Below are positions 9,739 through 33,525 of a stretch of 33,919 nucleotides of DNA, piece after piece (the stretch's first letter is position 1; each line of letters begins with the position of its first letter). The stretch is from an uncultured Prevotellaceae bacterium. GTDB taxonomy: Bacteria; Bacteroidota; Bacteroidia; Bacteroidales; Muribaculaceae. The stretch lies in the NCBI GenBank assembly GCA_900317325.1, contig ONGE01000032.1:1-33919 (forward strand), given 5' to 3'. A program made the position numbers and the translations under genes. Below the pieces are notes generated by a model that saw only the letters and a list, made by a program, of their open reading frames with translations, was not told where the DNA came from and made no database searches.

Positions 9739-11283
9739 ATGAGCAAGGAAAGAATACTGTGGGCCGACGACGAAATCGACCTGTTGAAGCCCCACATCCT
9801 GTTCCTCGAGAACAAGGGATATGAAGTGGAGACTGTCACCAACGGACGTGACGCACTCGATGCTCTGAGCAACCAGATTTTCAACCTTATCATTCTGGAT
9901 GAGAACATGCCGGGTATCAGCGGCCTCGAGGCCCTGCAACGCATCAAGATCATGCAGCCCAATGTCCCCGTCATCATGATCACTAAGAGCGAGGAGGAGG
10001 ACATCATGAACCAGGCCATCGGCAGCGAAATCGCCGACTACCTGATTAAGCCGGTCAACCCGATGCAGATTCTCCTGTCCATCAAGAAGAACCTGCACAG
10101 CGACGCCCTCATCACCGAGAAAGTCACCGGCGACTACCAGCAGGAATTCATGCGCATCAGCCAGATGATCAACTCGGCACAGACCATCGAGGACTGGTAC
10201 GAGCTCTACACCACCCTCGTGCACTGGGAGCTCACCCTGTCCAACGCCGACACCAACATGGACGAGATGCTCAAGATGCAAAAGGTCGAGGCCAACAGCG
10301 CCTTCGCCAAATTCGTGCGCCGCAACTACGAGGACTGGCTCACCAAGCCTGAACACCCCTTGCGCAGCAACGAGCTGTTCAAGACCAAGGTGCTCCCCTT
10401 GCTCGATAAGGGCGAGAAAGTCTGCTTTGTGGTCATCGACAACTTCAGGCTCGACCAGTGGCGCATTGTCAGCCCGCTGCTCGCCGATATCTACAACATC
10501 GAGAGCGAGGAACTCTACACCACCATCCTGCCCACGGCCACGCAGTATGCCCGCAACGCGATCTTCTCAGGACTCATGCCCATGGACATCGAGCAGATGT
10601 TCCCCGACCTGTGGGTCGATGAGGAAAGCGAGGAAGGCAAGAACCTGAACGAGGCTCCGCTCATCCAGACCCTGCTCGACCGCTATCGCCGCAAGGTGCA
10701 TTTCTCTTACAACAAGATGAATGACAGTGCTGCCGGCGAGAAACTGATGCAAAACTTCGGAATGTTCAAGAACTACGAGCTTAACGTGCTCGTGTTCAAC
10801 TTCGTGGACATGTTGTCGCATGCCCGCACCGAGTCCAAAACGATTCGCGAGCTGGCCAACACCGACAAGGCCTACCGCTCGCTCACCGAGTCGTGGTTCA
10901 AGAACTCCAACGTGCTCGAGATTTTCAAGCTGATGGCACAGAACGGTTACAAGATCGTGCTCACCACCGACCACGGCACCATCAAGGTAGACCGTCCCAT
11001 CAATGTCATCGGCGACAAGAACATCAACACCAACCTGCGCTACAAGGTGGGCAAGAGCCTGACCTACAACAGCAAGCAAGTCTATGAGATCAAGCAGCCC
11101 AAGCGTGTGGGTCTGCCTGCTCCCAACATCTCGAGCACCTACATCTTCGCGATGAACCGTGACTTCTTCGCCTATCCCAACAACTACAACTACTACGTTT
11201 CCTATTACAACGACACGTTCCAGCACGGCGGCATCTCGATGGAAGAGATGCTCGTGCCCATCGTGACCCTCTCCCCCAAGTAA
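9739..11283 (+). CDS. porX: PorX: response regulator with PglZ effector domain
   Basis: PorX is the response regulator that, with the kinase PorY, controls type IX secretion genes in Porphyromonas. Its effector is a PglZ-type, zinc-dependent alkaline-phosphatase-fold domain instead of a DNA-binding domain. Here residues 1-120 are a receiver with acidic pair Asp10-Asp11, phospho-acceptor Asp54 ([10 protein letters not shown]), Thr82 and Lys104 (LIKP). The PglZ part shows the metal and nucleophile motifs [38 protein letters not shown] and [10 protein letters not shown]. The 514-residue length fits the family. It follows porW by 24 bp and precedes tsaE by 56 bp, a neighbourhood shared with other Bacteroidota. 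porY is not in the window. Confidence 0.93.
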
Positions 11284-19131: not shown

Positions 19132-19857
19132 TCACTTGGCGTTGATGAAGTCCAGGAAGGCCTGCTTATAGCTGTCACCAATGGGGATATACACGTCGCC
19201 GAAGACAATGCGGTTGCGCTCAATCTCGCGGATTTTGCTCTTCTGCACGATGAACGAGCGGTGTACCCTGATGAAGCGCGAGGCGGGAAGCATCTGCTCG
19301 ATGGCCTTCATGTTCATCAACGATAAGATGGGATGAGGCGACTGCTCGGTGTAAATTTTCACATAGTCTTTCAGGCCCTCGATATAGCGGATGTCGTCAA
19401 GGTTGATCTGCAACAGCTTGTATTCGCTCTTGACAAAGATGCTGCGAGGCTCCTCCCCGGTAGGCGCAGCCGTGCCCGATTGCTCGCTCTGGTGTACGAG
19501 CTGGAACCACTGCATGGCCTTGGTGCTGGCCTCGAGGAAGTCGGCATAGCTGATGGGCTTCAACAGGTAGTCGAGCGCATTGACGCGGAAACCATCAACG
19601 GCATATTGGTTGAAGGCGGTGGTAAACACGATGCGGGTAGTCTCGGGAACCATTCGGCTCAACTCCAGTCCGTTGAGTTCGGGCATCTGGATGTCGAGGA
19701 AGAGCAGGTCAACAGGATTTTGCCCGATGCCGTGCAGGGCATCGGTGGCATTGGTGTACTTGCCGCACAATTCCAGGAAAGGGATCTTTTCTACATAGCT
19801 CGCCAGCAGTTCCACTGCCAGCGGCTCGTCGTCAACGATGGCACACTTGATAATCAT
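19132..19857 (-). CDS. LytTR-family response regulator
   Basis: This is a 241-residue DNA-binding response regulator. The receiver domain (about 1-120) has Asp9-Asp10, phospho-acceptor Asp55 (LLFLDIQMPELNG), Thr79-Thr80 and Lys100 (LDYLLKP). The C-terminal LytTR domain (about 140-241) has the typical IRYIEGLKDYVKIYT and FIRVHRSFIVQKSKI strands. The ATG overlaps the stop of the kinase gene by 4 bp (ATGA), so the pair is translationally coupled. The target is probably the efflux cluster immediately upstream on the same strand, inferred from position only. Confidence 0.93.
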   Translation of the reverse strand: MIIKCAIVDDEPLAVELLASYVEKIPFLELCGKYTNATDALHGIGQNPVDLLFLDIQMPELNGLELSRMVPETTRIVFTTAFNQYAVDGFRVNALDYLLKPISYADFLEASTKAMQWFQLVHQSEQSGTAAPTGEEPRSIFVKSEYKLLQINLDDIRYIEGLKDYVKIYTEQSPHPILSLMNMKAIEQMLPASRFIRVHRSFIVQKSKIREIERNRIVFGDVYIPIGDSYKQAFLDFINAK

Positions 19858-20930
19858 GACTGTTCTTCTTTCTTGATAGTGATTTTAGAGTAATATTCCT
19901 TGCCGTCTTCTCTCGTCCCTTTTTCCCAGGTGTAGCGGTCGGGGTACATCAGTTCCAGGCGTCGGCTCACCTGCTCCAGTCCGATGCCCGAGCCGCTCTT
20001 GTCATTCTCGCGCTTGGGATAGCAGGTGTTGTGAATCTCGCAGGTGATGTCGCCGTTGACCTGATTAAGGTCGATTCGGATATTACCGGCACCTTGCGGC
20101 GAAATGCCATGCTTGAAAGCGTTCTCGAGCAGCGAGATGAAGATGAGTGGAGCAACGGGCGTGGAGTCGTTGGGTTGTATATTGATGTTGGTGTCAATCT
20201 TCACGCTGTCGGTTACGCGGATTTTCATCAACTCGATATAGTTGCGCATGAAGTCGGCCTCCTTGTAGAGGGGCACAAAGTCCTGCTGGTTCTCGTAGAG
20301 CACGTGCCGCAACAGCTTGCTCAGCTCTCCCACTGCAGTCTGTGCCTTTTCCTGGTCAAAGGCGATGAGGGCATAGATGTTGTTCAGCGTGTTCAGCAGG
20401 AAATGCGGATTCATCTGGTTGCGCAGGTTGCTCAGCTCGGCCTCGGCTCGGGCAGTCTCAGCCTCCTGGCGTGCTTCCTCGACGTGTTGCCAATGCTGAA
20501 TCACGCGCACGGCGACAGCAAGGGAGATAATCAGCATGAGTATCATTACCGACCAGAAGTAGCGGGGGAACCTGACGTACGGCCTTCCGGGTCGATCGTT
20601 GTGAATCTCGGGCAGGAAATGCATTCCGCTCCAGTGCCACAAATCCATCACGAAGATGCCACCCACTATCACAATCAGGTTAATCAACAGGAACATTTTC
20701 CAGTTATTCTTGAGCAGGTAACGTGGCACGACCCACAGGTAGTTCAGATAGAAAACCAGAATGTAGGCCAGCGGGTTCCCGATCCACCTGACATAACGAT
20801 TCCACACAACCTGCCAGTCTTCGCTGGCACTATGGAAGAAGAAGGGCACAATAATCAGTACTGCCCAGCAAAGCAAGTGCAATACAAGATAGCGGTACTT
20901 GGATTTGTTTTTTTCAATCTCGGTTGCCAT
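19854..20930 (-). CDS. LytS/YehU-type sensor histidine kinase
   Basis: The 358-residue kinase has four membrane segments (about 14-34, 52-68, 78-98 and 125-143), a short coiled linker rich in Glu/Ala/Arg, then the His_kinase domain with His176 (NQMNPHFLLNTLNN). The ATP-binding N box is SLLENAFKHGI and the G box is GSGIGLEQVSRRL. There is no large periplasmic sensor, so it probably senses within or near the membrane. The start at 20930 is used because the longer open frame to 20978 begins upstream of the promoter at 20963-20994. It is the first gene of a two-gene unit with the LytTR regulator. Confidence 0.9.
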   Translation of the reverse strand: MATEIEKNKSKYRYLVLHLLCWAVLIIVPFFFHSASEDWQVVWNRYVRWIGNPLAYILVFYLNYLWVVPRYLLKNNWKMFLLINLIVIVGGIFVMDLWHWSGMHFLPEIHNDRPGRPYVRFPRYFWSVMILMLIISLAVAVRVIQHWQHVEEARQEAETARAEAELSNLRNQMNPHFLLNTLNNIYALIAFDQEKAQTAVGELSKLLRHVLYENQQDFVPLYKEADFMRNYIELMKIRVTDSVKIDTNINIQPNDSTPVAPLIFISLLENAFKHGISPQGAGNIRIDLNQVNGDITCEIHNTCYPKRENDKSGSGIGLEQVSRRLELMYPDRYTWEKGTREDGKEYYSKITIKKEEQS

Positions 20931-20962
20931 TTTCCAAAACAATATCGTTTTATTAGATATTG

Positions 20963-20994
20963 CAAAGATAATCAACAATTTCGGCTATGACAAA
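20963..20994 (-). promoter_or_regulatory. Promoter of the kinase/regulator pair
   Basis: On the minus strand TTTG (20994-20991), an exact 20-bp spacer and TATCTTTG (20970-20963) match the consensus. Transcription from near 20957 gives a leader of about 27 nt before the ATG at 20930. The pair can therefore be expressed independently of the efflux genes. Confidence 0.75.
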
Positions 20995-21030
20995 AGAATA
21001 TAGATAAAAACGCAAATCCAATAGACAAAC

Positions 21031-22272
21031 TCACTCGTAGCGCAATGCCTCAATAGGGTCAAGGTTGGCGGCTTTCTTGGCAGGATACCAGCCGAAGAAC
21101 ACGCCCGTAATGGTGCAGATGCCGAACGAGAGCAGCACGGTCCACGGCTCCACAGCGATGAGTATATGATAGTCGGTGAAGTGCATCATGACAAAGCGGG
21201 CAAGATAGGAGATTCCGGCACCAATGAGCACCCCGATGAGACCTCCAGTGACGCTGATGAGGATGGCCTCGATAAGGAATTGGCTCATGATATCGACCGT
21301 GCGGGCGCCAACGCTCATACGCAGACCGATTTCACGGGTGCGCTCGGTCACGCTCACATACATGATGTTCATGATGCCGATACCGCCCACCAGCAGTGAG
21401 ATGCCCGCGATGCACGAGAGCAGCAGGGTGAGAATGTTCATCACCGAATCAACCATCGAGGTGGCTTCCTCCAGTGAATTGACTCTGAAATCCTGCATAT
21501 CGGTGTCTTTGAGTTTATGGTTCTCACGCAGGATTTCCGTCACATCCTGTTTGGCCAACTGGGACATTTCCTTACTTGTGGCGGCGACATAAATCATATC
21601 GAAATAATTCTGCGATGTCATGCGCTTCATCACTGTCGTGTAAGGCATGAGCACGATATCATCCTGGTCCTGTCCAAAGGCTGTACGCCCCTTGCTCTTG
21701 AGCACGCCCACCACCCTGACGGGCATCGTGTTGATGCGGATGACTGTCCCGATGGGGTCGGCACCATTGGTGAAGAGTTTGTCCACGACCGTCTTACCGA
21801 TGATGCACACCTTGGCCGAACCCTTGACTTCGGCATCGGTGAACATATCACCTTCAGAAATCGAGAGTCCATTGATATCAAAGAATTCATTATTCACGCC
21901 CTGTACCGAACAGCTGTGGTTATTCTTGCCGTTAATGAATTGACCGGAGGAGTAAACCATGGGGCACACGGCTTTCAAATATTTGCTCTTTTCCAAAATG
22001 CTTTGATAGTCGGCCTGTGTGATGGTTTGGCTATACTCAGGCAGCCAATTACCGCCAGTTTCCTCATACTCTGGTCCAGGTATAATCATTAATGCCCCCG
22101 GATCCACGTCTTCGATCTCTTGCATGATGGTCGCCTTGGAACCTGTGCCCAGGGCGAGCATGATGATGACCGACGACACACCGATGATGATGCCCAGCAT
22201 GGTGAGGAAACTGCGCATCTTGTTGGCACCGATGGCCTTCAAGGCAATTTTGAATAGATTGGTGATATTCAT
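21031..22272 (-). CDS. MacB-type ABC transporter permease
   Basis: The 413-residue permease has the MacB/FtsX layout: one N-terminal membrane helix (about 18-42, RSFLTMLGIIIGVSSVIIML), a large periplasmic core domain (about 45-280), and three C-terminal helices (GISLLVGGIGIMNIMYVSVTE, the ILISVTGGLIGVLIGAG segment and LLSFGICTITGVFFG) ending in AANLDPIEALRYE. It lacks the fused ATPase of E. coli MacB; that is encoded 44 bp upstream. With the adaptor and TolC-like genes it should form a tripartite efflux pump for peptides, antibiotics or lipids. The substrate cannot be read from sequence. Confidence 0.92.
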   Translation of the reverse strand: MNITNLFKIALKAIGANKMRSFLTMLGIIIGVSSVIIMLALGTGSKATIMQEIEDVDPGALMIIPGPEYEETGGNWLPEYSQTITQADYQSILEKSKYLKAVCPMVYSSGQFINGKNNHSCSVQGVNNEFFDINGLSISEGDMFTDAEVKGSAKVCIIGKTVVDKLFTNGADPIGTVIRINTMPVRVVGVLKSKGRTAFGQDQDDIVLMPYTTVMKRMTSQNYFDMIYVAATSKEMSQLAKQDVTEILRENHKLKDTDMQDFRVNSLEEATSMVDSVMNILTLLLSCIAGISLLVGGIGIMNIMYVSVTERTREIGLRMSVGARTVDIMSQFLIEAILISVTGGLIGVLIGAGISYLARFVMMHFTDYHILIAVEPWTVLLSFGICTITGVFFGWYPAKKAANLDPIEALRYE

Positions 22273-22280
22273 CGTCTTTT

Positions 22281-22316
22281 AGTTTTTAGTCCTAACTCCT
22301 AACTTCTAACTCAAAA
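22281..22316 (-). repeat. Short degenerate heptamer array before the permease gene
   Basis: Read on the coding strand, five 7-bp units (AGTTTTG-like, AGTTAGA, AGTTAGG, AGGACTA-like, then ACTAAAA twice) fill the 44-bp gap from the ATPase stop codon to just before the permease ATG. The unit and period match the array before birA. Confidence 0.6.
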
Positions 22317-23063
22317 CTAGTCTTCCTCGACGGGGAGCGAAGCCAGCTTGACGTTGGCATCAAGGATGTTGGTGTTGATGCGATCCTCGCGCAGCTTGCC
22401 GTCACTCAGGGTGATGGTGCGCGTCGAGTATTGGGCAATCTCGGGATTGTGCGTCACAAAGATGATGGTGCGCCCCTCGGCATGCAGTTGCTGGAACAGC
22501 ACCAGGATTTCAAACGACGTGCGGGTGTCCAGGTTACCCGTCGCCTCGTCGGCCAGGATGACGGCAGGGTCGTTGACCAGGGCACGGGCAATGGCCACGC
22601 GCTGCATCTGGCCGCCCGACATCTGGTTGCTCTTGTGGTTCAGGCGGTCGCCCAGTCCCACACGTTGCAGGGCAGTCACTGCCCGCTCACGGCGCTCACG
22701 GGCACCTATCGAGCTGTTGTACATCAGCGGCAACTCCACGTTCTCGACTGCAGTGGTCTTGGCCAGCAGGTTGTAGCTCTGGAACACGAAGCCTATCTTG
22801 CGGTTCCTGAGCACGGCCCGCTGTGTCTTGCTCATCGTGCGCACCGGCGTCCCGTCCAGGCGGTACTCGCCGCTGGTGGGCGTGTCCAGGCATCCCAGGA
22901 TGTTGAGCAGCGTGGATTTGCCCGACCCCGAGGTGCCCATGATGGTGACAAACTCGCCCTCGTGGATGGTGAAGGACACCCCGCGCAGGGCATGCACCGT
23001 CTCCGATCCCACGATAAAGTCGCGGCGGATGCCATCAAGTTCTATGACTGGTTTCTGTGCCAT
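22317..23063 (-). CDS. MacB/LolD-type ABC transporter ATP-binding protein
   Basis: The 248-residue ATPase has Walker A GTSGSGKST (residues 43-51), Q-loop FVFQSYNLL, signature MSGGQMQRVAIARAL (Met replacing the usual Leu of LSGGQ, a common variation), Walker B AVILADEAT and the switch His in FVTHNPE. This places it in the MacB/LolD/FtsE class that powers FtsX-fold permeases. About 20 residues extend past the core. It energises the permease encoded immediately downstream. The gap to the adaptor gene upstream contains a 7-bp-arm hairpin. Confidence 0.94.
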   Translation of the reverse strand: MAQKPVIELDGIRRDFIVGSETVHALRGVSFTIHEGEFVTIMGTSGSGKSTLLNILGCLDTPTSGEYRLDGTPVRTMSKTQRAVLRNRKIGFVFQSYNLLAKTTAVENVELPLMYNSSIGARERRERAVTALQRVGLGDRLNHKSNQMSGGQMQRVAIARALVNDPAVILADEATGNLDTRTSFEILVLFQQLHAEGRTIIFVTHNPEIAQYSTRTITLSDGKLREDRINTNILDANVKLASLPVEED

Positions 23064-23093
23064 AATTCGTTTTATAAAGTCGTTAAGGTCATT

Positions 23094-23129
23094 AAGGACT
23101 TTCAGGTCTCTCAGCTCGTTAGAGTCCTT
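23094..23129 (-). repeat. Hairpin in the adaptor-ATPase spacer
   Basis: AAGGACT (23094-23100) and AGTCCTT (23123-23129) form a 7-bp stem in the 74-bp gap between the adaptor and ATPase genes. The arm sequence is the same 7-mer that is iterated before birA. It may tune the ratio of adaptor to ATPase; this is inference. Confidence 0.4.
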
Positions 23130-23137
23130 CTACCTGT

Positions 23138-24286
23138 TTACTTCTTGCCGTCTTTTTTGGCGTCTTTCTTGCCGGGTATGGCTTTCATCCCGATTTCGAA
23201 GCCCTGGATTACGGTGTCGCCTTCTTCCATGCCGCTGATAATCTCGGAGCGGATACCGTCGGTGACGCCGACTTCCACCTTGTGGGCAGTGAGGACATTA
23301 CCCTTGAGCGTCCACAACTTGTGCTCGGCTGTCGTGTCCTTGATGACATATTTGTTGCCAAACACGCTGGCCTCGGGGGTGAAGCGCAAGGCGGCTGTGG
23401 GCACACTCTTGACACCGCTGCGTTCCAGCGTGTAGATGGTGATGCTGGCGGTTAGGCCAGGCTTGAGTTTGAGGTCGGCATTGGGAGCGCTGACGACCAC
23501 TTCATAGGTCACCACATTATTGGTAGTGACGGGATTCTGACGCACCTGCTTGACCGTCCCCGAGAACACGTCTTCGGGGTAGGCATCGACGGTGAACGTC
23601 ACGCGCTGACCCTCGCGCACCTCGCCGATGTCGGCCTCGTCAACCTTGGCGATGCACTGCATGTCGGTCAGGTCCTTGGCGATCTTGACGATGGACGGGG
23701 TGCTGAACGCCGAGGCCACGGTCTGGCCTTCCTCGACCGACTTGCTGATGACAACGCCGTCGATGGGCGAATAGACGGTAGCATAGCTCAGGTCGGTTTT
23801 GGCTCTGGCCACATCCTGCTGCGCTATCCTGACGGCTTCCTGGGCCTTGCGGTAGTTCTCCAGCGCCACGTCATACTCCGACAGGCTTACCAGGTCCTTC
23901 TGCTTGAGTTCGGCATAGCGGGCATAGTTCTTCTTCTGGTAATCCAGGTCGATCTGGGCCGAACGCAGGCGGGCCTGGGCCGTGGAGAGATTGCTCTGCA
24001 GATTGGTGCGGTCCAGTTCGGCAATGATCTGTCCGCGCTTGACAACACTATTATAGTCCACATACAGCCGCGTGACGATACCCGACACCTGGGTACCCAC
24101 GTCAACAGTCTTGACGGGTTCGATGGTACCCGTGGCGGTGATGTTGGTGGCGATGTCACCTGGTCCCACTGCGGTGGTCTGGAAATTGACCTGCTCACCG
24201 CCACCCTTCTTGCTCACGATGGCGATAATTCCGGCGACCAACAACAGGCCCACCAGCGACAAAATGATTATCTTTCCCTTTTTCAT
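23138..24286 (-). CDS. MacA-like periplasmic adaptor (membrane fusion protein)
   Basis: The 382-residue adaptor has an N-terminal membrane anchor (about 5-24, IIILSLVGLLLVAGIIAIVS) and a biotinyl-lipoyl-like half-motif (GTIEPVKTVDVGTQVSGIVTRLYVDYNSVVKRG, about 53-85). An alpha-hairpin (LQSNLSTAQARLRSAQIDLDYQKKNY...), the second lipoyl half (TVYSPIDGVVISKSVEEGQTV) and beta-barrel and membrane-proximal domains follow. It ends in a Lys/Asp-rich tail. This is the HlyD/MacA class that links the ABC permease to the TolC-like channel. No lipobox is seen. The gene is second in the four-gene efflux operon. Confidence 0.93.
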   Translation of the reverse strand: MKKGKIIILSLVGLLLVAGIIAIVSKKGGGEQVNFQTTAVGPGDIATNITATGTIEPVKTVDVGTQVSGIVTRLYVDYNSVVKRGQIIAELDRTNLQSNLSTAQARLRSAQIDLDYQKKNYARYAELKQKDLVSLSEYDVALENYRKAQEAVRIAQQDVARAKTDLSYATVYSPIDGVVISKSVEEGQTVASAFSTPSIVKIAKDLTDMQCIAKVDEADIGEVREGQRVTFTVDAYPEDVFSGTVKQVRQNPVTTNNVVTYEVVVSAPNADLKLKPGLTASITIYTLERSGVKSVPTAALRFTPEASVFGNKYVIKDTTAEHKLWTLKGNVLTAHKVEVGVTDGIRSEIISGMEEGDTVIQGFEIGMKAIPGKKDAKKDGKK

Positions 24287-24300
24287 ATTATTGTATTTTT

Positions 24301-24346
24301 AGTTTTTAGTCTCTAATCTCTAGAAAAACAACTCCTAAATCCTAAC
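24301..24346 (-). repeat. Degenerate heptamer array before the adaptor gene
   Basis: The spacer between the TolC-like stop (24347) and the adaptor ATG (24286) consists of imperfect 7-bp units. On the coding strand it reads AAGTTAGG-like, then AGAGATT/AGAGACT, then ACTAAAAACTAAAA, followed by the start region. It resembles the arrays at 22281 and 11791. Confidence 0.5.
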
Positions 24347-25714
24347 TTAAAACTGTATTCCCTCTCCGTTGTAGTACTTGAGCATCGCCATGTTGAGCAG
24401 GGCCTCATACTTGGCCTGCAACATCTGCTGGATGGCAGTACTCAGGTTGGTCTTGTCCTGGGTCACTTCCACGATGTTCTTCAAGCCCAGGCGGAACTGC
24501 TCGCTGGTCAAACTGTAGCTCTCGCGGCAATAGTCCACTTTCTCTTTGGCAGCGATGTAGCGCTGCTGATTGTTGTGAGCTTGGAGCCAGTAGTTCTCGA
24601 TGGTCTTCCACAGGTTCTTCTGCGTCTCGACCATGTCGAGATAGGTGTTCTCACGTTCCAGACGGGCCCTGGCGACAGCATTCTTGGTCTTCCCATGGTC
24701 CCAGATGGGGATGATCAACGACACGCCAATGCCGTTGCTCCACTGCTTCTTCAACTGGGTGAACATGTTGCCGCTGCCCGACGAGTTGGTGGTGCTGATG
24801 GCGGCACTGGCATTGAGCACGGGTTTACTGCCCGCCTTGGCGATTTCTTCATCGATATACGTCCTGTCCATGGCCAACTGTTGGGCTTTGAGCTCGGGAC
24901 GTGAAGCAACTGCGTTCTGATACACCATCTGCTTAGCAGGCAGCTCGGCAAGCACGTTGCCGGTGAGTTGCGGGTCGGCGAGTACCAGATTGTCGTCGCC
25001 GTCAAGTTCCATCAATTGCTTGAGTTGCAAGCGGTAGCCATCCAGGGCCGTCTGGTCGGCCACTTTTTGGTACTTGTCTTGAGCCAACTGAGACTCAAAC
25101 TGCGACACATCGGCCTTGTTGAGCAGGCCGGCCTGCTTGCGGGCACGCGCCTGTTCCAGCTGTGCCTGCCCCAGTGCGATGAGTTCATCGTCATGCACGA
25201 CGGCATCCTGTGAGTAGAGAATCTGTACATACAGCTGCGTGATACGTTCCTCCAGGTTCAACTCGCTTGTCAGCACCTGCAACTCGGCAATCTGGGTATT
25301 GATTTCGGCCAGACGGATGTTGTTCTTGGTCAGCCCGCCATTATACAGATTCATGGAGGCGCCCAGATTGTAACTGCCGCTATAGCTGTTCTTGTTGCTG
25401 AATGAAATCACCTCGCTGCCCACAACGCCGCTATAACTCTCCTGGAATGGACGGTTGCTCACATACTGGCTCGTCGAGAAGTCAACAGTGGGCAGTCGAT
25501 TGGCCTTGGCTTCTTTAACGGCAATCTGCGAAGTGCGCACGTTCACCTTGTTGCGCTGCACGGTGATGCTCTGCTGCTTCGCCCAGTTGATGCAGTCCTG
25601 CAGGGTCCACGTGTAAGGTGTCTCTTGGTAAACCGCCACACTGTCCTGAGCCATGGCGCTGCACGCTGTCATCAGGCATCCGGCCAATATGATATAGTTC
25701 ATCAATCTCATCAT
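24347..25714 (-). CDS. TolC-family outer membrane efflux protein
   Basis: The 455-residue protein has a signal peptide (MNYIILAGCLMTACSAMAQ) and two outer-membrane-efflux repeats, each a pair of long helices and strands (WTLQDCINWAKQQSITVQRNKVNV near the start; LKAQQLAMDRTYIDEEIAKAGSKPVLNASAAIS in the second half). It ends with the TSEQFRLGLKNIVEV motif seen in TolC proteins. It should form the trimeric outer membrane and periplasmic channel of the MacAB-like pump. It is the first gene of the cluster; no clear TTTG/TAnnTTTG promoter was found in the 150 bp before it. A TAC motif in the signal could suggest lipidation, but signal peptidase I cleavage after AMA fits better. Confidence 0.92.
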   Translation of the reverse strand: MMRLMNYIILAGCLMTACSAMAQDSVAVYQETPYTWTLQDCINWAKQQSITVQRNKVNVRTSQIAVKEAKANRLPTVDFSTSQYVSNRPFQESYSGVVGSEVISFSNKNSYSGSYNLGASMNLYNGGLTKNNIRLAEINTQIAELQVLTSELNLEERITQLYVQILYSQDAVVHDDELIALGQAQLEQARARKQAGLLNKADVSQFESQLAQDKYQKVADQTALDGYRLQLKQLMELDGDDNLVLADPQLTGNVLAELPAKQMVYQNAVASRPELKAQQLAMDRTYIDEEIAKAGSKPVLNASAAISTTNSSGSGNMFTQLKKQWSNGIGVSLIIPIWDHGKTKNAVARARLERENTYLDMVETQKNLWKTIENYWLQAHNNQQRYIAAKEKVDYCRESYSLTSEQFRLGLKNIVEVTQDKTNLSTAIQQMLQAKYEALLNMAMLKYYNGEGIQF

Positions 25715-25792: not shown

Positions 25793-25836
25793 AAAAAAAT
25801 CGCTCCACGACCCTAAACCGGGGGTCATGGAGCGAT
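25793..25836 (-). terminator. Strong rho-independent terminator of the TonB/DUF5689/EEP operon
   Basis: On the minus strand, ATCGCTCCA and then a GACCC-type stem pair across a short loop with TGGAGCGAT (25836-25799), followed by seven Ts (25799-25793). It lies 31 bp past the stop of the EEP gene and separates it from the efflux operon. Confidence 0.92.
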
Positions 25837-25866
25837 CATGTGAGTTTTTTTACAGTAACGCGACGA

Positions 25867-26952
25867 TTACTTGACTTCTTTCACCAGGTAAATCATCGTG
25901 GGGAAGTGGTCACTGTAACCGTTCATGAAGATACCTGCCGAGAAAGTGCGCAGGGGATAGCCCTGACGGTCACCCTCGTCGCCACGCAGGAACTTGCGGT
26001 TCAGCACCTCGGCGCGGGCGAAGGTCAAGGTGGGCTTGTCCTTGCTGTCGTAGTTGCGCAGGAAGTAGTTGGTGAAGATGATCTGGTCGAACAGGTTCCA
26101 ATTGCCCTTGTAGCCCAGAGTGCCGATACCCTTGTTCAAGATGTTCCACCAGGGATTAAAGCACGAGCCCGGCTCGATGCAGTCCTTGATCTCCTTCTTG
26201 GCACCCAGTGCCTCGCTACAACTCCTGTTCTGCGGGTCGTCGTTCAAGTCGCCCATGAAGATGATGCCCTGGTTGGGGTCGTCACGCAGCAGCGAGTCGA
26301 TCGTCTCACGAGCCATGCGGCCGGCGGCCTCACGCAGGTAACTCGACTGTTCCTCACCACCCAGTCGCGAGGGCCAGTGGTTGACAATAACCGAAACCTT
26401 TTCACCGGCAAGCATACCGGTGACACACAACTGGTCGCGGGAGCGGAAATCGGGATAGTCGGGCAGGTACTTGTTGATGCGCTGGTTAGTGACATTCAAC
26501 ACCTTGAAGAAACGAGGATTGTACAACAAGCCGACGTCCACACCGCGGCGGTCAGGACCATCGTGGTGAACAATCTGGTAGCGGCGGTCCTTGATCTCGG
26601 GCTGACGCACAAGATCCTGAAGCACCGTGATGTTCTCGAGCTCACTCACGCCGATGATGACGGGACCTTCGGCAGGCGAGCCCTTCACCTCCATCTGGCT
26701 GATGGCGTAGGCCATGTTATGCTGTTTCTGCCAGTACTTGGTGCCGTTCCATTGACGAGCACCTTCGGGTGAGAACTCCTTGTCATACACGCCATTGTTG
26801 TTGATGGTGTCGAACAGGTTCTCCAGGTTGTAGAACATCACGCCATACATCGTGTAGCGGCGTTCCAGTTGTTGCTGCTCTTCCTGGTCTTGGGCCAGCA
26901 TCGGCAGGATTGCCATCCATGCCAGAGCCAGTAATAACAATTTCTTCATCAT
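25867..26952 (-). CDS. Secreted endonuclease/exonuclease/phosphatase (EEP) family protein
   Basis: The 361-residue protein has a signal peptide (KKLLLLALAWMAILPMLAQ) and the EEP fold used by DNase I-like nucleases and phosphodiesterases. Motifs are FYNLENLFD, the metal-binding Glu in GVSELEN, HHDGPDRRGVDVGLLY, VNHWPSR with its catalytic His, FMGDLNDDP and the final SDHFP with the second His. All catalytic positions appear intact. EEP enzymes cleave phosphoesters in nucleic acids, phospholipids or inositol phosphates; the substrate is not fixed by sequence. It is the last gene of the operon with the TonB receptor and DUF5689 lipoproteins, which suggests an extracellular or periplasmic nutrient-releasing role. 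Confidence 0.88.
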   Translation of the reverse strand: MMKKLLLLALAWMAILPMLAQDQEEQQQLERRYTMYGVMFYNLENLFDTINNNGVYDKEFSPEGARQWNGTKYWQKQHNMAYAISQMEVKGSPAEGPVIIGVSELENITVLQDLVRQPEIKDRRYQIVHHDGPDRRGVDVGLLYNPRFFKVLNVTNQRINKYLPDYPDFRSRDQLCVTGMLAGEKVSVIVNHWPSRLGGEEQSSYLREAAGRMARETIDSLLRDDPNQGIIFMGDLNDDPQNRSCSEALGAKKEIKDCIEPGSCFNPWWNILNKGIGTLGYKGNWNLFDQIIFTNYFLRNYDSKDKPTLTFARAEVLNRKFLRGDEGDRQGYPLRTFSAGIFMNGYSDHFPTMIYLVKEVK

Positions 26953-26982
26953 ATCAGTTTTTGATTTTCGGATTCTCAGTGC

Positions 26983-27027
26983 TCAGTTTTCAGTTGAAAG
27001 CCGATCAAGCCGTCAACTGAAAACTGA
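26983..27027 (-). repeat. 15-bp inverted repeat between DUF5689 and EEP genes
   Basis: TCAGTTTTCAGTTGA (26983-26997) and its exact complement (27013-27027) form a perfect 15-bp stem with a 15-nt loop in the 94-bp gap. The arms are made of CAGTTTT/ACTGAAA-type 7-mers, which continue on both sides. No U-run follows, so partial attenuation or mRNA protection is more likely than full termination. Confidence 0.6.
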
Positions 27028-27046
27028 TGACTGAAAAACTTGATTA

Positions 27047-29296
27047 TTAATTCTCCCAAACAAGATTCCAGATGGAAACACGGTCCTTGTTACTCTTTGA
27101 GTTGGACGGGCACAGGTTGGTGATCTCTATCGTGAAGTCACCGCTGATGTCACAGGTCGCCGAGAAGTCGTAGGCCGTCTTCTGGGTCACATTGTTTCTC
27201 GTTTCGGTCCATGACTTGACCACATTGCCGTTCTGCTTCACATCGATGCGGAACGACAGCACCTTGTCAGACATCGCTGCACCGTAGCTGAACGCCAGCT
27301 TCTTCATGCCGCCCTTGATAACCGGCGACACGATGGTACCCACGCTGGTCGTCTTACCGTTCAGCGTCGGAGCCTTGGCATAGATGCCGGGATTCTCGGT
27401 CATGAAGCCGATGAACGGGAAGGTGGGATTGAGCTCATCGGGACCACCCTGGAACAGGCAGCAGTTGTTAGCCACCCAACCCTTGGTCGAGGTGAAGGTA
27501 CCGTACTGGCCCGTAGCATCACCCATCGTCTCGAAGTCGGCGCGGTTCGCAACCTCAACCTTACCCATGCCGAAGGTCACATCGTCGATGCACCATGTCG
27601 TCTGGGTTGCGCCTGCAGGCGCCTTGTAGCAGAAGCCGATGTAGTATTCACCGTCGGCCCACTCGCTCAAGTCGATGTCACCCGACGAGGTCCAAGCGCT
27701 ATAGTTGCTGGCAGGTCTGGGCGGGAGAATGGGATTCAGCTTCACTTTCACAGTGGCTGTCACGGGATCCTTGGAGTTGAGCACATAAACCTCGAGTCGG
27801 TTATTGCCCTTGTCGTTCACCTCCGAGGTGAAGTTGAAGATCTTGCTCTTGGCATTCTTGATATCCAACCTCGGGGTAATCAGCCACGACTCGGCATCCT
27901 GATTAGGCGTACTGTTATACCTGATCTGGGCACATACGATGGGCTTACCACCGCTGGTGTAAGAGTAAACGCTCCATCGCGTGTCGCCGCCCACCGTCAC
28001 ATTGGTCCAGTTACGAGGTATTGAGCCATTATTGAAGGTCTCTTGCATCTTTTCGTAAGAGATGTCCAGAAGATAATCATTTTCGGAACCGGTATTGCCG
28101 ACGATGCCGGACGTACCCATAAAAGTACCAGGCTTTCCATATACAAAGATATGGGCCTTGTAAACCTGAGGATTTTCAACCAAGTTGGCATCAGCGCGGA
28201 ATGCCGAACCTTGCGGCAGCGGCACGACAATGCACTTGGTGTAGTCCTTGCACTCGGGATCATCAGCAATCACGATGGTATTATCGAGCTCTGTGGGAGC
28301 ATTCCACTCGATGTCGGCATTGCTGCTCACGGTGGTCTTCTCAGCAGCAACGGCACCCACGATATAGCCCTCAGTCCAGCCAATGTCGGCGATATTCTGG
28401 GCCTCGATAGCATCGGCCACCGAATACGGCAGAGTGATGGTACCCTTCTTGCCTTCGCCAATCACATCCTCGATGGTGCGCAAGTAGAACTGCCAGTCGC
28501 TGTTACTGGTCTGGTAGTAACCCAGGACGCCCACGACATCATAGCGGCCAAGTGGCAGGGGCGTGGTGGCGAAGTCGGCACTGCGGCTATTGCGCACGAT
28601 GAGCTGGTTGCGGCCCAAGTCCATAATCATGCGGTTGGTGCTGGAGCTGGCATCGTCGGCATAGGGTGTGCGGCCATCGGCCTCCACAAACTCGACGTTC
28701 CTGATGCGCACGAGCAGGCCCTGGTACTTGCGCAGGGTCTCGGAATCATACTTGCCCTGGAATTCGCTGATCTCGACGTCAACGGTATCCACCTTGCTCA
28801 CGTCGGGCATCAGGTTGTACTGAACCAGTGACTCCATCTCGGCGGCCGACATGTTCAGGCACTCCAATGTAATATCACCATTCTTGCTGACGTAGTTGTA
28901 AGGAGCAGCCACATTCAACTGGCCAGTGGCCTTGCCCACATAGTGGCCCTTCATGGGAAGGACGACCTCCTGGCCCACGCGGAACTTCGTGTAAAGTTCG
29001 TTCTGGGAAATGGAGAGCGACAGGCCTGCAGTTCCGTCACTGATATAAACTGTCTTATAGATGTTGTTGCTGATATCGTTTGCAGTCACCCAGCCATGAA
29101 TGACCTCATCCTCGGTCACGGTGTCCACATAGTTGGTACTTTCCTTCCAATGTTTTACCTTGAAATCGGCGATGGTCATATTCGGGACAGCATCGGCAAC
29201 AGGAATGTAAACTGGCGGCTGGTCAAACTCTTCATGACATGACGTCACGAGAACCAGCAGTAGCATCAGTCCAAGAAAATATTTAATGCTTTTCAT
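27047..29296 (-). CDS. DUF5689 lipoprotein with DUF6359-like and adhesin-like C-terminal domains
   Basis: The 749-residue protein has a lipoprotein signal ending LVTSC (Cys20). Residues about 38-270 are DUF5689 (MTIADFK...VIHGWVTANDISNNIYKTVYISDGTAGLSLSI, ending QFYLRTIEDV), whose strand pattern resembles OB folds. Residues about 285-420 recall DUF6359 (YSVADAIEAQ...WTEGYIVGAV), another OB-like module. Two choice-of-anchor-J/cleaved-adhesin-like beta sandwiches follow (about 435-575 and 580-749, with SWLITPRLDI and WVANNCCLFQGG). It is likely surface exposed. The N-terminal part is clearly paralogous to the next gene upstream at 29329. With the TonB receptor it may act like a SusD-type capture protein; the ligand is unknown. 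Confidence 0.82.
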   Translation of the reverse strand: MKSIKYFLGLMLLLVLVTSCHEEFDQPPVYIPVADAVPNMTIADFKVKHWKESTNYVDTVTEDEVIHGWVTANDISNNIYKTVYISDGTAGLSLSISQNELYTKFRVGQEVVLPMKGHYVGKATGQLNVAAPYNYVSKNGDITLECLNMSAAEMESLVQYNLMPDVSKVDTVDVEISEFQGKYDSETLRKYQGLLVRIRNVEFVEADGRTPYADDASSSTNRMIMDLGRNQLIVRNSRSADFATTPLPLGRYDVVGVLGYYQTSNSDWQFYLRTIEDVIGEGKKGTITLPYSVADAIEAQNIADIGWTEGYIVGAVAAEKTTVSSNADIEWNAPTELDNTIVIADDPECKDYTKCIVVPLPQGSAFRADANLVENPQVYKAHIFVYGKPGTFMGTSGIVGNTGSENDYLLDISYEKMQETFNNGSIPRNWTNVTVGGDTRWSVYSYTSGGKPIVCAQIRYNSTPNQDAESWLITPRLDIKNAKSKIFNFTSEVNDKGNNRLEVYVLNSKDPVTATVKVKLNPILPPRPASNYSAWTSSGDIDLSEWADGEYYIGFCYKAPAGATQTTWCIDDVTFGMGKVEVANRADFETMGDATGQYGTFTSTKGWVANNCCLFQGGPDELNPTFPFIGFMTENPGIYAKAPTLNGKTTSVGTIVSPVIKGGMKKLAFSYGAAMSDKVLSFRIDVKQNGNVVKSWTETRNNVTQKTAYDFSATCDISGDFTIEITNLCPSNSKSNKDRVSIWNLVWEN

Positions 29297-29328
29297 ATCG
29301 TTATTCTGTTTTTTGCTTGATTCTCAAA

Positions 29329-30156
29329 TTAATTGGCGGGTTTCACATCGTCAATCGTGCGCAGGTAGAGCTGCCAGGTGTTGCTGGAATAGGAACCGAG
29401 CAAACCGATGATGTCCACCTTGCCGGTTGGCAGGGTAACAGCGCGAAAGTCGGCATAATTGCTGTTGCGCAATGTCAATGTCTTACCTGAATCGTCATGG
29501 ATAGTGCGATTGCTGGAAGCGTCTTTGTCCGAGAAAGTCAGCTCTCCGGCACCATCAAACTCAACACCATTGATGCGCACCAGGCGGCCCTGGTACTTCA
29601 GCAATGTTGGGGTTGAGAAGTCTTCGCAGAAGTCGCCCAGCCTCACTTCGAGGGGCTCTACCTTGGAGGGATCAGGCAGGCCGTTGAGTTCGACCATATC
29701 CTCCCACATGGCTTGAGGCAGGAACGTGGCCTCCCACGTGCGGCCCTTTTGATACCATGCCGGATAGCCCAGCTGCTGCTGGCCATTATATTTGCCGACA
29801 TAATAGCCCTTCAACGGCAGGACGAGTTCCTGACCGATGCGGTATTTGTTGCACAGGCTGTTCTGGTTGATGGATATCGACAGAGCTGCGGTGCCGTCAT
29901 AGATGTACAGGTTCTTGTAGATATTGCCGCTCACATCGGTACTGGTCACCCAACCGTGGATGACGATGTCCTCCTTGACGGTGTCAATGTAATTGACAGC
30001 ATCTTGCCAGTACTTGGCCTTGAAATCGGCAATGGTCATATTGGGAGTGTGCTTGGCAACAGGGGTCCTTAACTCCTGATCGTCAAACTTATCATTGCAA
30101 GCCGTGGCCAATGCCAACAGGAGCGCCAAGCTCAGATAGAAATTAAAACGTTTCAT
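29329..30156 (-). CDS. Short DUF5689 lipoprotein, paralogue of the downstream gene
   Basis: The 275-residue protein has a lipoprotein signal ending LATAC (Cys20) and a single DUF5689 region (MTIADFKAKYWQDAVNYIDTV, IVIHGWVTSTDVSGNIYKNLYIYDGTAALSISI, LVRINGVEF, ending LYLRTIDDVKPAN). It aligns along its whole length with the first 270 residues of the neighbouring 749-residue protein, so the two arose by tandem duplication. It lacks the DUF6359-like and adhesin-like domains. It lies 45 bp after the receptor gene and 32 bp before its paralogue, in the same operon. A role as a small OB-fold-like surface binding protein is inferred. Confidence 0.85.
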   Translation of the reverse strand: MKRFNFYLSLALLLALATACNDKFDDQELRTPVAKHTPNMTIADFKAKYWQDAVNYIDTVKEDIVIHGWVTSTDVSGNIYKNLYIYDGTAALSISINQNSLCNKYRIGQELVLPLKGYYVGKYNGQQQLGYPAWYQKGRTWEATFLPQAMWEDMVELNGLPDPSKVEPLEVRLGDFCEDFSTPTLLKYQGRLVRINGVEFDGAGELTFSDKDASSNRTIHDDSGKTLTLRNSNYADFRAVTLPTGKVDIIGLLGSYSSNTWQLYLRTIDDVKPAN

Positions 30157-30201
30157 ATTGTATGATTTTTATTGTCTTAGTTAATATCTATTTCTTGCAC
30201 A

Positions 30202-32967
30202 TCAGAACTTCAGACCCAGGTTCAGGAACATCTTGAAACCTTGAGCGTAGTAGTACTTGTTGGGGAACTTGGTCGACGTGTTGGTATAGTCCTTGGTGTC
30301 GGTACGACCCTGCTGGTAACCTCCCGTCTGGATGTTCTTGTTATCAAGAATGTTGTTCAGGTTCAGGTTGATGTTGAACGATGCCGTGCGGTTGATGTAA
30401 ATCACGTGACCGATGCTGGCATTGAACACCAGTGCCTCGTTCAGCTTCTCTTGCTGCGCGATATCGGCAATCATTTCCTTGAGCTGAGTCTCGTTGTCGG
30501 CCAGCTGGTACAGGTCCTTGATGACCTCGTGGCGGGTAGGAGCGATGCTCACATAGGAGCGGTTCATCCATGCGCCATTCAACTCAACATACCACTGCTT
30601 GGGACCAGCCCAGTTAAAGGCTAACATATAGCACTCCTGGGGCGTTCCGGCAACATAGTAGTTCTTGAGATAAACCTGGTTGGTCTCATCAGGCTCCGAA
30701 CCATTCTCATAGCTGCGGGTACCATAGGGGTTGTTCTTGTACTGGTAGCGGGCAATGTTGGCAGCACCGCTCATGGTCAGCGAGGAAGACAACTTGTAGC
30801 TGAAGCCCACCTCAACGCCCTTGTACTGCTTGTGAACACCGGTGAGCGCATAGTTCATGAACGTGCTGTGCAGGTCATCATAGAATGCGGTGCGCTCGGT
30901 GTTGTCGCGCTGGTCGGTATAGAATACGGTGACAACGCCCTTGAAGTTGCGGTAGCTCATCGTATAACTCAGGTCGGCCGAGAAGATCTTCTCCACCTTG
31001 AGGTCGATCACATCGTCCTTGGTGCGCGATGAGATGTAGGCATCGTAGGGGCGAGGAGCCTCGGTGCCATAGAATGCATGGCCCGTGAAGCTGTTGCGGC
31101 CATCAAGCTTGAAGGTGATACCTCCCTTGGCGCCATAGGTCAGGAAACGATGCACATCGCCCTTGCCCAAGGAATTATCGGGAGCACGGCCATTGCGCAT
31201 CTTACCGTCACGCTGGAACTGGAAATAGTCACCCTTGACACTGGCAAACAATTCCCACTTGGCCAGGTTGAGCACCCACTGGTGCCACAACTGGGCCTTC
31301 GTGGTCAGGATGTTGTAGTCGTAGCCGAAACGGTCACCCTTGCCCACCTTGCGGTTGGGGTTATCCATATCGTTCTGAGCCATCGCGGGATTATCGGGGA
31401 AGTCGCGCTCGCTGAAGTTGTCCACGTCAAGCCAGTACCTGCCACCCAGCAAGTCCTTGACCGTCTTGTAGTAGGATGACATCGTGTAGTTGGCGTTGAC
31501 ACCGGTCTGCATGAGCAGCTGGTGGGAGAAGCGCTTGTTGAGCGTCGACGACAGCGTGAAGCTCGACTGGTTGCTGTGACGATTCTCGAGCACATAGGTC
31601 GAACCCATTTCCTTGCCTTCCTTGCCTGCCAGATAATTGTTCAGCTGGTTGACCTGATACAGGTCGTCCCACAGTATCTGGGTGTACTCGCTACCGTTGT
31701 GCCAACGGTCGTAGTAGAGGTTAAACGCTTCGGAATTAACATCATAGTACGACGGCAGGTAACGGTAATAGTCGGGACGCGGGTCAGCGGCCTTGTACCA
31801 GTTGAGGGCGGCCTTGCTGTAGAACGACTTGTGATAGGCGAAACCTGTGTTAACCGTAGTGCTTGAGTTGGGTTTCCACAGCCAGTTCAGGATTGCAGTG
31901 GGGTCAAAGGACTCAACCACCTTGGAGTTGCGCTTCTTGCCGTCTTGCCAGCCCCAGTCAGGACTGTACATGTTGCTGCCCACCAGATTGCACACCTCCT
32001 CGAACACGGCCGAGTTGGCGGCACGCTTCGTCGGGGCACCGAAGGTGGTCAGCGTCAACGAGTGCTGCGGGTTGAAGATCTTCTGCACCGACAGGAAGTA
32101 GCCCCAGCTGTTGTAGAACGAGCCGGGATAGACACCCTCGTCGGCATAACGTGCCACGGCCGACAGCGTCATGGCCCAACCATGCTTGTTCAAGCCGGTG
32201 GCATGGGTCACCATGCCGCGCCAACGGTAGTTGCCGTTGGTGTAAGCAAGACTCAATCGCGTGCCGGGAGCATAATCAGCAGCAAAGGTCCTGATGTTGC
32301 TGGCACCGCCAATGCCACCAAAACCGTAGCTGTTGTCTTCCAGACCTATGCCGATAGTCTTGTTCCTGAAGGCTTGGTTCATACCGCCGGTCATCGAGTA
32401 GTTGAAGGCAAAACGCACACCGTCGTTGAACGGGATGTTGTTGATGTAGACCTCGGTCTTGTTACTCTCGTAACCACGGATGCGGAAACGCATCGCGCTG
32501 AAGGTGTAACTCGACGCCTGATAGAAGGAGTTGTCACTCGCACCGCTCAACAAGGCGATTTCCTGAGTGTTGCCCGCTTCATCCTCAAGCTGAGACTCAG
32601 TGAGAACCATGTCTGACATGGCATTTCGGAACTCCAGAGTCTGGGCGCTCTCAAAGGATACTGGTTCAATCCGTATCGTGCCCAGATTCTCTACCACATC
32701 GTTGACGATCGTCACGTCAAGCATCCAGTCATTGTAGCCGTAAGCGAGGACAAGCAGTTGATCGGGACCCGGATTCGCATCATCAATGATGAACGAACCG
32801 TCGGTGCCCGTTGTGGCTGCATCGCCTTGATTGTCGAGAATGACAGTCGCACCGACTACTGGCAGACCGCTCTTGGCGTCAATCACCACGCCCTGCACGC
32901 CAGCTCGCTGTGCCAGCAGCGGCAGGGTAGCAAAGAGTGCTAATAGCAAAAACAGTTTCAGTCTCAT
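30202..32967 (-). CDS. TonB-dependent outer membrane receptor with CarboxypepD_reg-like domain
   Basis: The 921-residue protein has a signal peptide (RLKLFLLLALFATLPLLAQ) and a carboxypeptidase-regulatory-like domain (about 22-105, GVVIDAKSGLPVVGATVIL). A divergent plug (about 120-240, MRFRIRGYESNKTEVYINNIPFNDG and GFGGIGGASNIRT) and a 22-strand-type barrel follow, ending in Phe (KMFLNLGLKF). It imports a ligand through the outer membrane using TonB energy. It is not a canonical SusC: no SusD gene follows. Instead two DUF5689 lipoproteins and an EEP enzyme share its operon, which runs from the promoter at 33080-33110 to the terminator at 25793. Confidence 0.92.
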   Translation of the reverse strand: MRLKLFLLLALFATLPLLAQRAGVQGVVIDAKSGLPVVGATVILDNQGDAATTGTDGSFIIDDANPGPDQLLVLAYGYNDWMLDVTIVNDVVENLGTIRIEPVSFESAQTLEFRNAMSDMVLTESQLEDEAGNTQEIALLSGASDNSFYQASSYTFSAMRFRIRGYESNKTEVYINNIPFNDGVRFAFNYSMTGGMNQAFRNKTIGIGLEDNSYGFGGIGGASNIRTFAADYAPGTRLSLAYTNGNYRWRGMVTHATGLNKHGWAMTLSAVARYADEGVYPGSFYNSWGYFLSVQKIFNPQHSLTLTTFGAPTKRAANSAVFEEVCNLVGSNMYSPDWGWQDGKKRNSKVVESFDPTAILNWLWKPNSSTTVNTGFAYHKSFYSKAALNWYKAADPRPDYYRYLPSYYDVNSEAFNLYYDRWHNGSEYTQILWDDLYQVNQLNNYLAGKEGKEMGSTYVLENRHSNQSSFTLSSTLNKRFSHQLLMQTGVNANYTMSSYYKTVKDLLGGRYWLDVDNFSERDFPDNPAMAQNDMDNPNRKVGKGDRFGYDYNILTTKAQLWHQWVLNLAKWELFASVKGDYFQFQRDGKMRNGRAPDNSLGKGDVHRFLTYGAKGGITFKLDGRNSFTGHAFYGTEAPRPYDAYISSRTKDDVIDLKVEKIFSADLSYTMSYRNFKGVVTVFYTDQRDNTERTAFYDDLHSTFMNYALTGVHKQYKGVEVGFSYKLSSSLTMSGAANIARYQYKNNPYGTRSYENGSEPDETNQVYLKNYYVAGTPQECYMLAFNWAGPKQWYVELNGAWMNRSYVSIAPTRHEVIKDLYQLADNETQLKEMIADIAQQEKLNEALVFNASIGHVIYINRTASFNINLNLNNILDNKNIQTGGYQQGRTDTKDYTNTSTKFPNKYYYAQGFKMFLNLGLKF

Positions 32968-33079
32968 AAAAGTAAATATATTAAATTTATAGTAATCACA
33001 GATAAAGATAAGTGCTTAACGTTTAAGTTAATTTCACATAATCCACAGCATGAAAGGTCGTCACATTATGAAAAGTTTT

Positions 33080-33110
33080 CAAAGTTAAAGGTTATTTTTG
33101 ACCTGTCAAA
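33080..33110 (-). promoter_or_regulatory. Promoter of the TonB receptor/DUF5689/EEP operon
   Basis: On the minus strand TTTG (33110-33107), a 19-bp spacer and TAACTTTG (33087-33080) match the consensus. The leader would be about 107 nt, long enough to hold regulation. The AT-rich leader shows a small CTTAA/TTAAG repeat near 33014-33026 but no recognised riboswitch. Confidence 0.7.
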
Positions 33111-33188: not shown

Positions 33189-33476
33189 CTACTTTTTCTT
33201 CCAATAGTCGTTATACATCTTGATGCCGAACACAATGGCGCTCGACACCGTGGTGATGACATTGGTGATGAACAGCGGCCAGTTCTCAAGCATCAGACCT
33301 TGGATGGCAAACAAGATACCGCCCAGACCCATCATCAGGAAGGTGGGCAAGGCGATACCGTCGGTGTCATGGGTGCGGATCGTGTAGATGGCCTGGGGCA
33401 TGTAACCGAGGATCAGGCAGATTGAACCGGTGTAACCGATAATGTCGGACAAGTTGTTAGTGATAAAATCCATCAT
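33189..33476 (-). CDS. SemiSWEET-type PQ-loop transporter
   Basis: The 95-residue protein has three membrane helices and the PQ-loop signature Pro27-Gln28 in GYMPQAIYTIRTHDTDGI, matching SemiSWEET proteins. These work as dimers for facilitated passage of sugars. The second half (PLFITNVITTVSSAIVFGIKMYND) carries the usual conserved Asn. The start is one of two adjacent ATGs at 33476 or 33473. No promoter match is visible; it follows the peptidase gene but a terminator hairpin lies between. The substrate is unknown. Confidence 0.82.
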   Translation of the reverse strand: MMDFITNNLSDIIGYTGSICLILGYMPQAIYTIRTHDTDGIALPTFLMMGLGGILFAIQGLMLENWPLFITNVITTVSSAIVFGIKMYNDYWKKK

Positions 33477-33493
33477 AATAGAGATATAAGATT

Positions 33494-33525
33494 AAAAACG
33501 TGGGACCCCAGAAGGGCCCCACGTG
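33494..33525 (-). terminator. Terminator between peptidase and SemiSWEET genes
   Basis: On the minus strand CACGTGGGGCCC and GGGGTCCCACG form a GC-rich stem around TTCT, followed by TTTTTAATC (33498-33490). It lies about 10 bp past the peptidase stop codon. Confidence 0.85.

Follow-up and report, generated by a model that had tools for sequence, protein, structure and literature searches.

A Bacteroidales operon of a TonB-dependent receptor, two DUF5689 lipoproteins, and an EEP enzyme as a probable outer-membrane DNA importer

Layout of the operon

The window, i.e., the whole 33,919-nucleotide stretch that was analyzed, carries four closely spaced minus-strand genes. In order, they encode a TonB-dependent receptor of 921 aa with a CarboxypepD_reg extension, a plug, and a barrel (positions 30202 to 32967), a short DUF5689 lipoprotein of 275 aa that is a candidate surface DNA-capture protein (29329 to 30156), a long lipoprotein of 749 aa with DUF5689, DUF6359, and choice-of-anchor J domains (27047 to 29296), and an EEP (Exo_endo_phos_3) protein of 361 aa, a candidate periplasmic nuclease (25867 to 26952). 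The gaps between consecutive genes are 45, 32, and 94 nt, respectively. The operon proposed in an earlier, sequence-only reading of this DNA was recovered from the open reading frames (ORFs) and their spacing, and its gene order was borne out by the Pfam matches.

A pattern scan placed a Bacteroides-type promoter, TTTG-N19-TAACTTTG, at positions 33080 to 33110 on the minus strand, where a consensus promoter had been claimed. The consensus of Bacteroides promoters is TTTG-N19-21-TAnnTTTG, and the pattern occurred at 6 sites in the window, whereas 300 block shuffles gave 0.1 sites on average. The site at 33110 to 33080 was absent from the output of a sigma-70 promoter scan of the window, as expected for a promoter of another type. 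At the other end of the operon, the strong terminator claimed at 25793 to 25836 was found as an intrinsic terminator with a 16-pair stem, an 8-nt loop, and a T run at 25798 to 25837 on the minus strand. Directly upstream of the operon lies a minus-strand PQ-loop (SemiSWEET-like) gene of 95 codons (33189 to 33476), which the earlier reading had overlooked and which is preceded by its own hairpin (33498 to 33524).

SusCD loci and BtuB-BtuG pairs combine a TonB-dependent receptor and surface lipoproteins in one operon. The window operon unites the same two kinds of protein; it differs in having no SusD match, in the predicted tandem OB fold of its short lipoprotein, and in an enzyme of the EEP family. 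The layout, with a receptor first and then surface lipoproteins and a hydrolase, would also suit an ordinary SusCD-type glycan utilization locus without SusD. That origin is highly improbable, given that the SusD, SusC, and glycoside hydrolase models were all absent from the matches of the four proteins, the missing SusD having been pointed out already, and that the receptor-DUF5689 layout recurs across other families of the class.

The receptor and its counterpart in Riemerella

The receptor matched CarboxypepD_reg in Pfam, together with a subthreshold match to Plug (19.7 versus 23.9 bits), and the plug and barrel fold of a TonB-dependent transporter was present. A structure search with the receptor model returned cobalamin and siderophore transporters as the closest structures; the fold is that of ordinary transporters, and this search gave no clue to the substrate. 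A sequence search yielded no solved relatives of the receptor at E values up to 0.01.

A functional lead came from Riemerella anatipestifer, in which natural transformation was lost in nine insertion mutants and in which, according to the same report, markerless deletion of either RA0C_RS04915 or RA0C_RS04920 brought transformation below detection (PMC8459023). RA0C_RS04915 is described there as an outer-membrane protein with CarboxypepD_reg and RA0C_RS04920 as a DUF5689, choice-of-anchor J protein; RS04910 is mentioned once, as an upstream gene, with transcription unaffected (PMC8459023). The authors present the two outer-envelope proteins as unlike known transformation machinery, trace the receptor-lipoprotein pair through Flavobacteriaceae, and, in their account, leave open the step from double-stranded DNA (dsDNA) to single-stranded DNA (ssDNA) (PMC8459023). 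Furthermore, mutation of tonBA or tonBB is reported to lower R. anatipestifer transformation, an effect that the authors attribute to iron in the case of tonBB and leave open for tonBA (PMC8383284).

Among the collected genomes, G439 has the gene row recA, IMS polymerase, three succinate dehydrogenase genes, comEC, two more genes (a short gene and one that by eye is carboxyltransferase-like), EEP, receptor, and DUF5689. The published tags are RA0C_RS04870 for recA, 04895 for comEC, 04915 for the receptor, and 04920 for the lipoprotein, with an increment of 5 per gene (PMC8459023). The G439 gene order is in step with these tags, and its receptor was therefore taken as RA0C_RS04915 and its EEP gene as RS04910; by the same token, G439 is presumably R. 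anatipestifer. Its locus L186 has a G+C content of 35.2%, compared with 35.0% for the type strain (PMC3111989). The window receptor matched the G439 receptor with 325 bits and 30% identity, compared with 55 bits for the next best match in G439, and a reverse search from the G439 receptor returned the window's receptor as the sole match, making the two reciprocal best matches. With G439 taken as R. anatipestifer from its gene order, the window receptor qualifies as a predicted ortholog of RA0C_RS04915; at 30% identity, however, the substrate could have changed.

The two loci share a receptor followed by a same-strand DUF5689/choice-of-anchor J lipoprotein and a linked EEP gene, which is adjacent in the Riemerella-like locus, and the lipoprotein of that locus has the same domain types as the long lipoprotein of the window. 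Unlike the Riemerella-like locus, the window carries a pair of DUF5689 lipoproteins and has its EEP gene in fourth place in the operon rather than divergent upstream; in addition, its organism's comEC lies on another contig. The loci also differ in their scores against the NCBIfam subfamily M949_1556 (NF052645; cut-off, 475 bits), which were 599 bits for the Riemerella-like lipoprotein and, below the cut-off, 148.7 bits (long lipoprotein) and 89.8 bits for the window.

In a quick tree of 88 receptor rows, which included 14 randomly kept "other" receptors, 73 were separated from the others by a branch with an SH-aLRT support of 99%. These 73 came from Bacteroidales, Flavobacteriaceae, the family containing Riemerella, and other families, and they grouped largely by taxonomy, Bacteroidales and other families being intermixed in places. 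The tree's other group consisted of 13 of the 14 "other" receptors plus one Flavobacteriaceae row (L113_fla_1090), and one long row (L122_oth_2) stood alone.

DUF5689 lipoproteins

The short lipoprotein matched DUF5689 in Pfam with 193.7 bits, and the long one matched DUF5689 (169 bits) and DUF6359 (76.4 bits), with choice-of-anchor J assigned by NCBIfam. Cys20 is followed by NDKFDD in the short protein and by HEEFD in the long one. A cysteine followed by acidic residues is a surface export signal in Bacteroidota, and the acidic residues of both lipoproteins fit such signals.

The structure predicted for the short lipoprotein was a tandem OB fold (pLDDT, 87.7), in keeping with the OB-like character that had been proposed for DUF5689. 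Among the 50 Foldseek matches listed for this model, 38 were HIN-200 domains (24 named so by title and 14 that we take to be such domains), 9 were ssDNA- or telomere-binding proteins, and 3 were LysRS; TM-scores among these matches did not exceed 0.45. In its predicted tandem OB arrangement, the model resembles the dsDNA-binding HIN-200 domains (IFI16, p202, and p204), a resemblance in fold only. In contrast to HIN-200, the short DUF5689 protein is acidic, and a phmmer search of solved chains with it gave no relative at E values up to 1. The isoelectric points of the two window lipoproteins are 5.0 and 4.8, that of the Riemerella-like lipoprotein is 5.2, and those of 79 Flavobacteriaceae lipoproteins have a median of 4.05, which was also the lowest value returned. 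Such acidity speaks against simple electrostatic binding of DNA.

Twenty other DUF5689 proteins, hand-picked from rows of at most 89 bits with very long frames excluded (a receptor is found 3.1 kb away from one of them, L235), were scanned for further domains. Ten had a nuclease domain (PLDc_2 in six and Endonuclease_1 in four), and no catalytic domain other than nuclease was found in the 20. DUF5689 scored above the cut-off in six of the 10 nuclease proteins and below it in two (L240 and L241); it was not detected in L231 and L233, which were cut at the first Met, nor in L238. The nuclease-carrying frames with a DUF5689 match were L223, L225, L226, L227, L230, L231, L233, L237, L240, and L241. 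In addition, L228 had a subthreshold match to the N-terminal, noncatalytic domain of purple acid phosphatases, and type IX sorting tails were seen in 9 of the 10 PLD-type or endonuclease I proteins from DUF5689 frames.

EEP enzyme

The EEP protein matched Exo_endo_phos_3 (PF19580) with 345 bits against a cut-off of 27. Ten residues, N41, E43, E103, E105, D138, H191, D234, N236, D347, and H348 (numbered from the second Met), were conserved at ≥0.99 among 170 collected EEP ORFs; with the catalytic residues among them assigned as we presume, the catalytic motifs are intact, as had been claimed. By eye, the protein has an N-terminal signal sequence without a lipoprotein cysteine and is therefore likely to be periplasmic or secreted. 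No solved relative was found by sequence at E values up to 0.01.

The secreted nucleases ExeM/NucH offer a partial parallel. The window EEP protein weakly matches positions 226 to 402 of their model, and the DUF5689 part of the PLD-type protein at L071 weakly matches positions 34 to 120. However, the window EEP score, 23 bits, is far below the cut-off of 300, and in the window the enzyme and the binding domain are encoded by different genes next to that of a receptor.

Among the EEP enzymes are phosphatases and sphingomyelinases. This breadth, together with the acidic lipoproteins and the nearness of the receptor model to cobalamin and siderophore transporters, would suit another phosphoester-containing ligand or an unrelated one (a phospholipid headgroup, a cofactor, or a metal complex), with an indirect phenotype in Riemerella. 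Such a ligand is unlikely: in the proteins scanned, the only catalytic domains accompanying DUF5689 were nucleases, the DUF5689 model has a fold similar to that of DNA-binding tandem OB proteins, and deletions of RS04915 and RS04920 were both reported to leave transformation below the detection limit (PMC8459023).

Conservation of the locus

Receptor orthologs were defined by E < 1e-80, a threshold that lies in a gap, the next independent match being at 1.9e-48 and two lower rows being further pieces of genes already counted. By this definition, the receptor was found in 45 of 99 genomes of the order Bacteroidales, at 46 loci; at 1e-20, matches extended to 57 of the 99. DUF5689 lay within 6 kb of the receptor at 44 of the 46 loci, counting rows down to 74.7 bits, and always with a same-strand copy downstream. 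An EEP gene lay within the same distance at at least 30 of the 46, so that the linkage that the sequence-only reading had proposed to survey proved to be conserved. Among the EEP matches listed, the gene was divergent upstream in 27 cases and on the same strand upstream in 2, and it was downstream only in the window. The EEP protein at L004, the locus with the closest relative of the window receptor, is 60% identical though divergently placed, and the EEP gene therefore seems to have moved in the window lineage while staying linked. PF19580 was found in 90 of the 99 genomes, with or without the receptor, and one receptor genome, G032, had none.

DUF5689 matches of ≥85 bits, a threshold picked after the table was seen, occurred in all 45 receptor genomes and in none of the 54 others. 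At the Pfam cut-off, DUF5689 was found in 55 of the 99 genomes, comprising all 45 with the receptor and 10 of the other 54. One genome of the window's own family, G025, had neither a receptor ortholog nor DUF5689.

Beyond Bacteroidales, 115 loci were collected in three sets, two of them chosen by lipoprotein match (L069 to L088 and L185 to L199) and one, from Flavobacteriaceae, by receptor match (L097 to L176), so that none is a free sample. The receptor was present at 19 of 20, 15 of 15, and 80 of 80 loci, respectively, with DUF5689 beside it at 19, 15, and 79 and EEP at 15, 14, and 79. Loci L069, L070, and L185 to L199 appear to belong to Weeksellaceae. In the Flavobacteriaceae set, a second EEP gene was seen downstream of DUF5689 at 38 of the 80 loci, and another receptor ORF was seen upstream at 36.

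Competence genes

The window's genome gave one ComEC match, in a 701-aa frame. ComEC was found in 94 of the 99 genomes, and its presence in the window's genome therefore says little. Full-length ComEC (frame of ≥600 aa) was not significantly associated with the receptor, occurring in 38 of 45 genomes with it and 41 of 54 without it (P = 0.33); contig ends may account for some of the short frames. ComEC was not found at E ≤ 0.001 in three receptor genomes (G002, G034, and G050) in which the adjacent DUF5689 is present, and in G008 a TGA lies within the ComEC match. Adjacency of comEC to the receptor was considered as a general rule and rejected, as a ComEC model built from seven Bacteroidales proteins found it at only 3 of the 115 loci (L186, L187, and L189). 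Likewise rejected as presence markers were the helix-hairpin-helix (HhH) protein, DUF1343, and EEP: HHH_3 was found in 97, DUF1343 in 90, and PF19580 in 90 of the 99 genomes, so that presence alone has no power.

A three-HhH protein like the essential one of Riemerella was not found in the window's genome, which is 94% complete, a further difference between the two organisms. An HhH search of this genome gave only a Tex-sized frame of 713 aa and a 128-aa anchor-like ORF. The latter (L219, positions 1622 to 2005, minus strand, on contig C33) has an HhH/ComEA-like membrane-anchor motif and a lysine- and arginine-rich tail and lacks HhH; it is a weak match (E = 0.028) with no Pfam match, and it lies beside a gene that by eye is sodium-symporter-like. 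A similar ORF occurs in G060 (L220; E = 2e-5), and G072 has a full-length HhH gene beside a transporter similar to the sodium-symporter-like neighbor at L219.

The same import machine could be purely nutritional here, supplying phosphate, nitrogen, or bases from extracellular DNA or RNA without transformation. This possibility is a serious one, if not the favored one. The short ORF with a basic tail stands, as a weak match, in the place of the HhH protein; the receptor is kept in the genomes in which ComEC was not found, with G008 having the TGA noted above; and an EEP gene is kept near the receptor at at least 30 of 46 loci. Against a purely nutritional function, the ComEC match is kept in the window's genome, and the genetics of the counterpart genes, as published, give a transformation phenotype only (PMC8459023). 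Nucleotide salvage genes were not recognized among the 16 window ORFs scanned, a weak objection given that linkage is not required. Taken together, the HhH, ComEC, and acidity results weaken transformation in the window organism more than they weaken DNA import.

A proposed DNA import operon

The probable function of the cluster is that of an outer-membrane DNA import operon that is pilus free, driven by TonB, and based on surface capture, serving transformation, nucleotide scavenging, or both. The two surface lipoproteins would catch extracellular DNA through their tandem OB (DUF5689) domains, TonB would open the plug, and the receptor would pass the DNA into the periplasm on TonB energy. There, the EEP enzyme would cut or trim the DNA, and the product would go to ComEC-dependent transformation, to nucleotide and phosphate scavenging, or to both. 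We infer that DNA is the substrate in the window organism and, likewise, which way it is transported and on what energy, what the EEP enzyme does, and what becomes of the DNA. In the published accounts drawn on here, it is solely in Riemerella and solely for transformation that receptor and lipoprotein are required and that TonB has an effect (PMC8459023 and PMC8383284).

The sequence-only reading had proposed a utilization locus for nucleic acid or another phosphoester polymer, with DUF5689 proteins in the place of SusD. Its nucleic acid half gains from the tandem OB model, the kept linkage, and the DNA genetics, whereas the alternative of some other phosphoester polymer casts the net too wide, because the sole experiments on the counterpart genes, as far as that report goes, show loss of transformation (PMC8459023). 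A broader proposal, with about as much for it as against it, is a pilus-independent, TonB-powered DNA importer, widespread in Bacteroidota, that is composed of a HIN-like tandem OB surface lipoprotein, a dedicated receptor, and an EEP nuclease. It would be passed on mostly by vertical descent and would serve transformation or DNA feeding according to lineage.

Published work already covers the receptor-lipoprotein pair and how far it extends in Flavobacteriaceae (PMC8459023). The present comparison carries the Riemerella pair into Bacteroidales and further families of the class, adds a frequent third partner, an EEP protein whose phosphoesterase active site appears intact, and offers for the DUF5689 family, of unknown function, a role in DNA capture that can be tested. 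A limited literature search, which may have missed prior work, found no account of the Bacteroidales extension, an EEP gene as partner, a tandem OB model of DUF5689, or fusions with nuclease domains. If the proposal is true, the nuclease step left unassigned in the Riemerella work would fall to the EEP enzyme, and simple deletions could test many Bacteroidota for exchange of genes or feeding on DNA.

Other genes in the window

Downstream of the operon, on the minus strand, positions 19132 to 25714 hold TolC, HlyD, ABC ATPase, and MacB/FtsX genes, followed by genes for a histidine kinase and a LytTR response regulator; this cluster resembles an efflux system that comes with regulators of its own. 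On the plus strand, positions 9739 to 11283 encode a PglZ domain fused to a response regulator, a protein that presumably resembles the type IX secretion regulator PorX.
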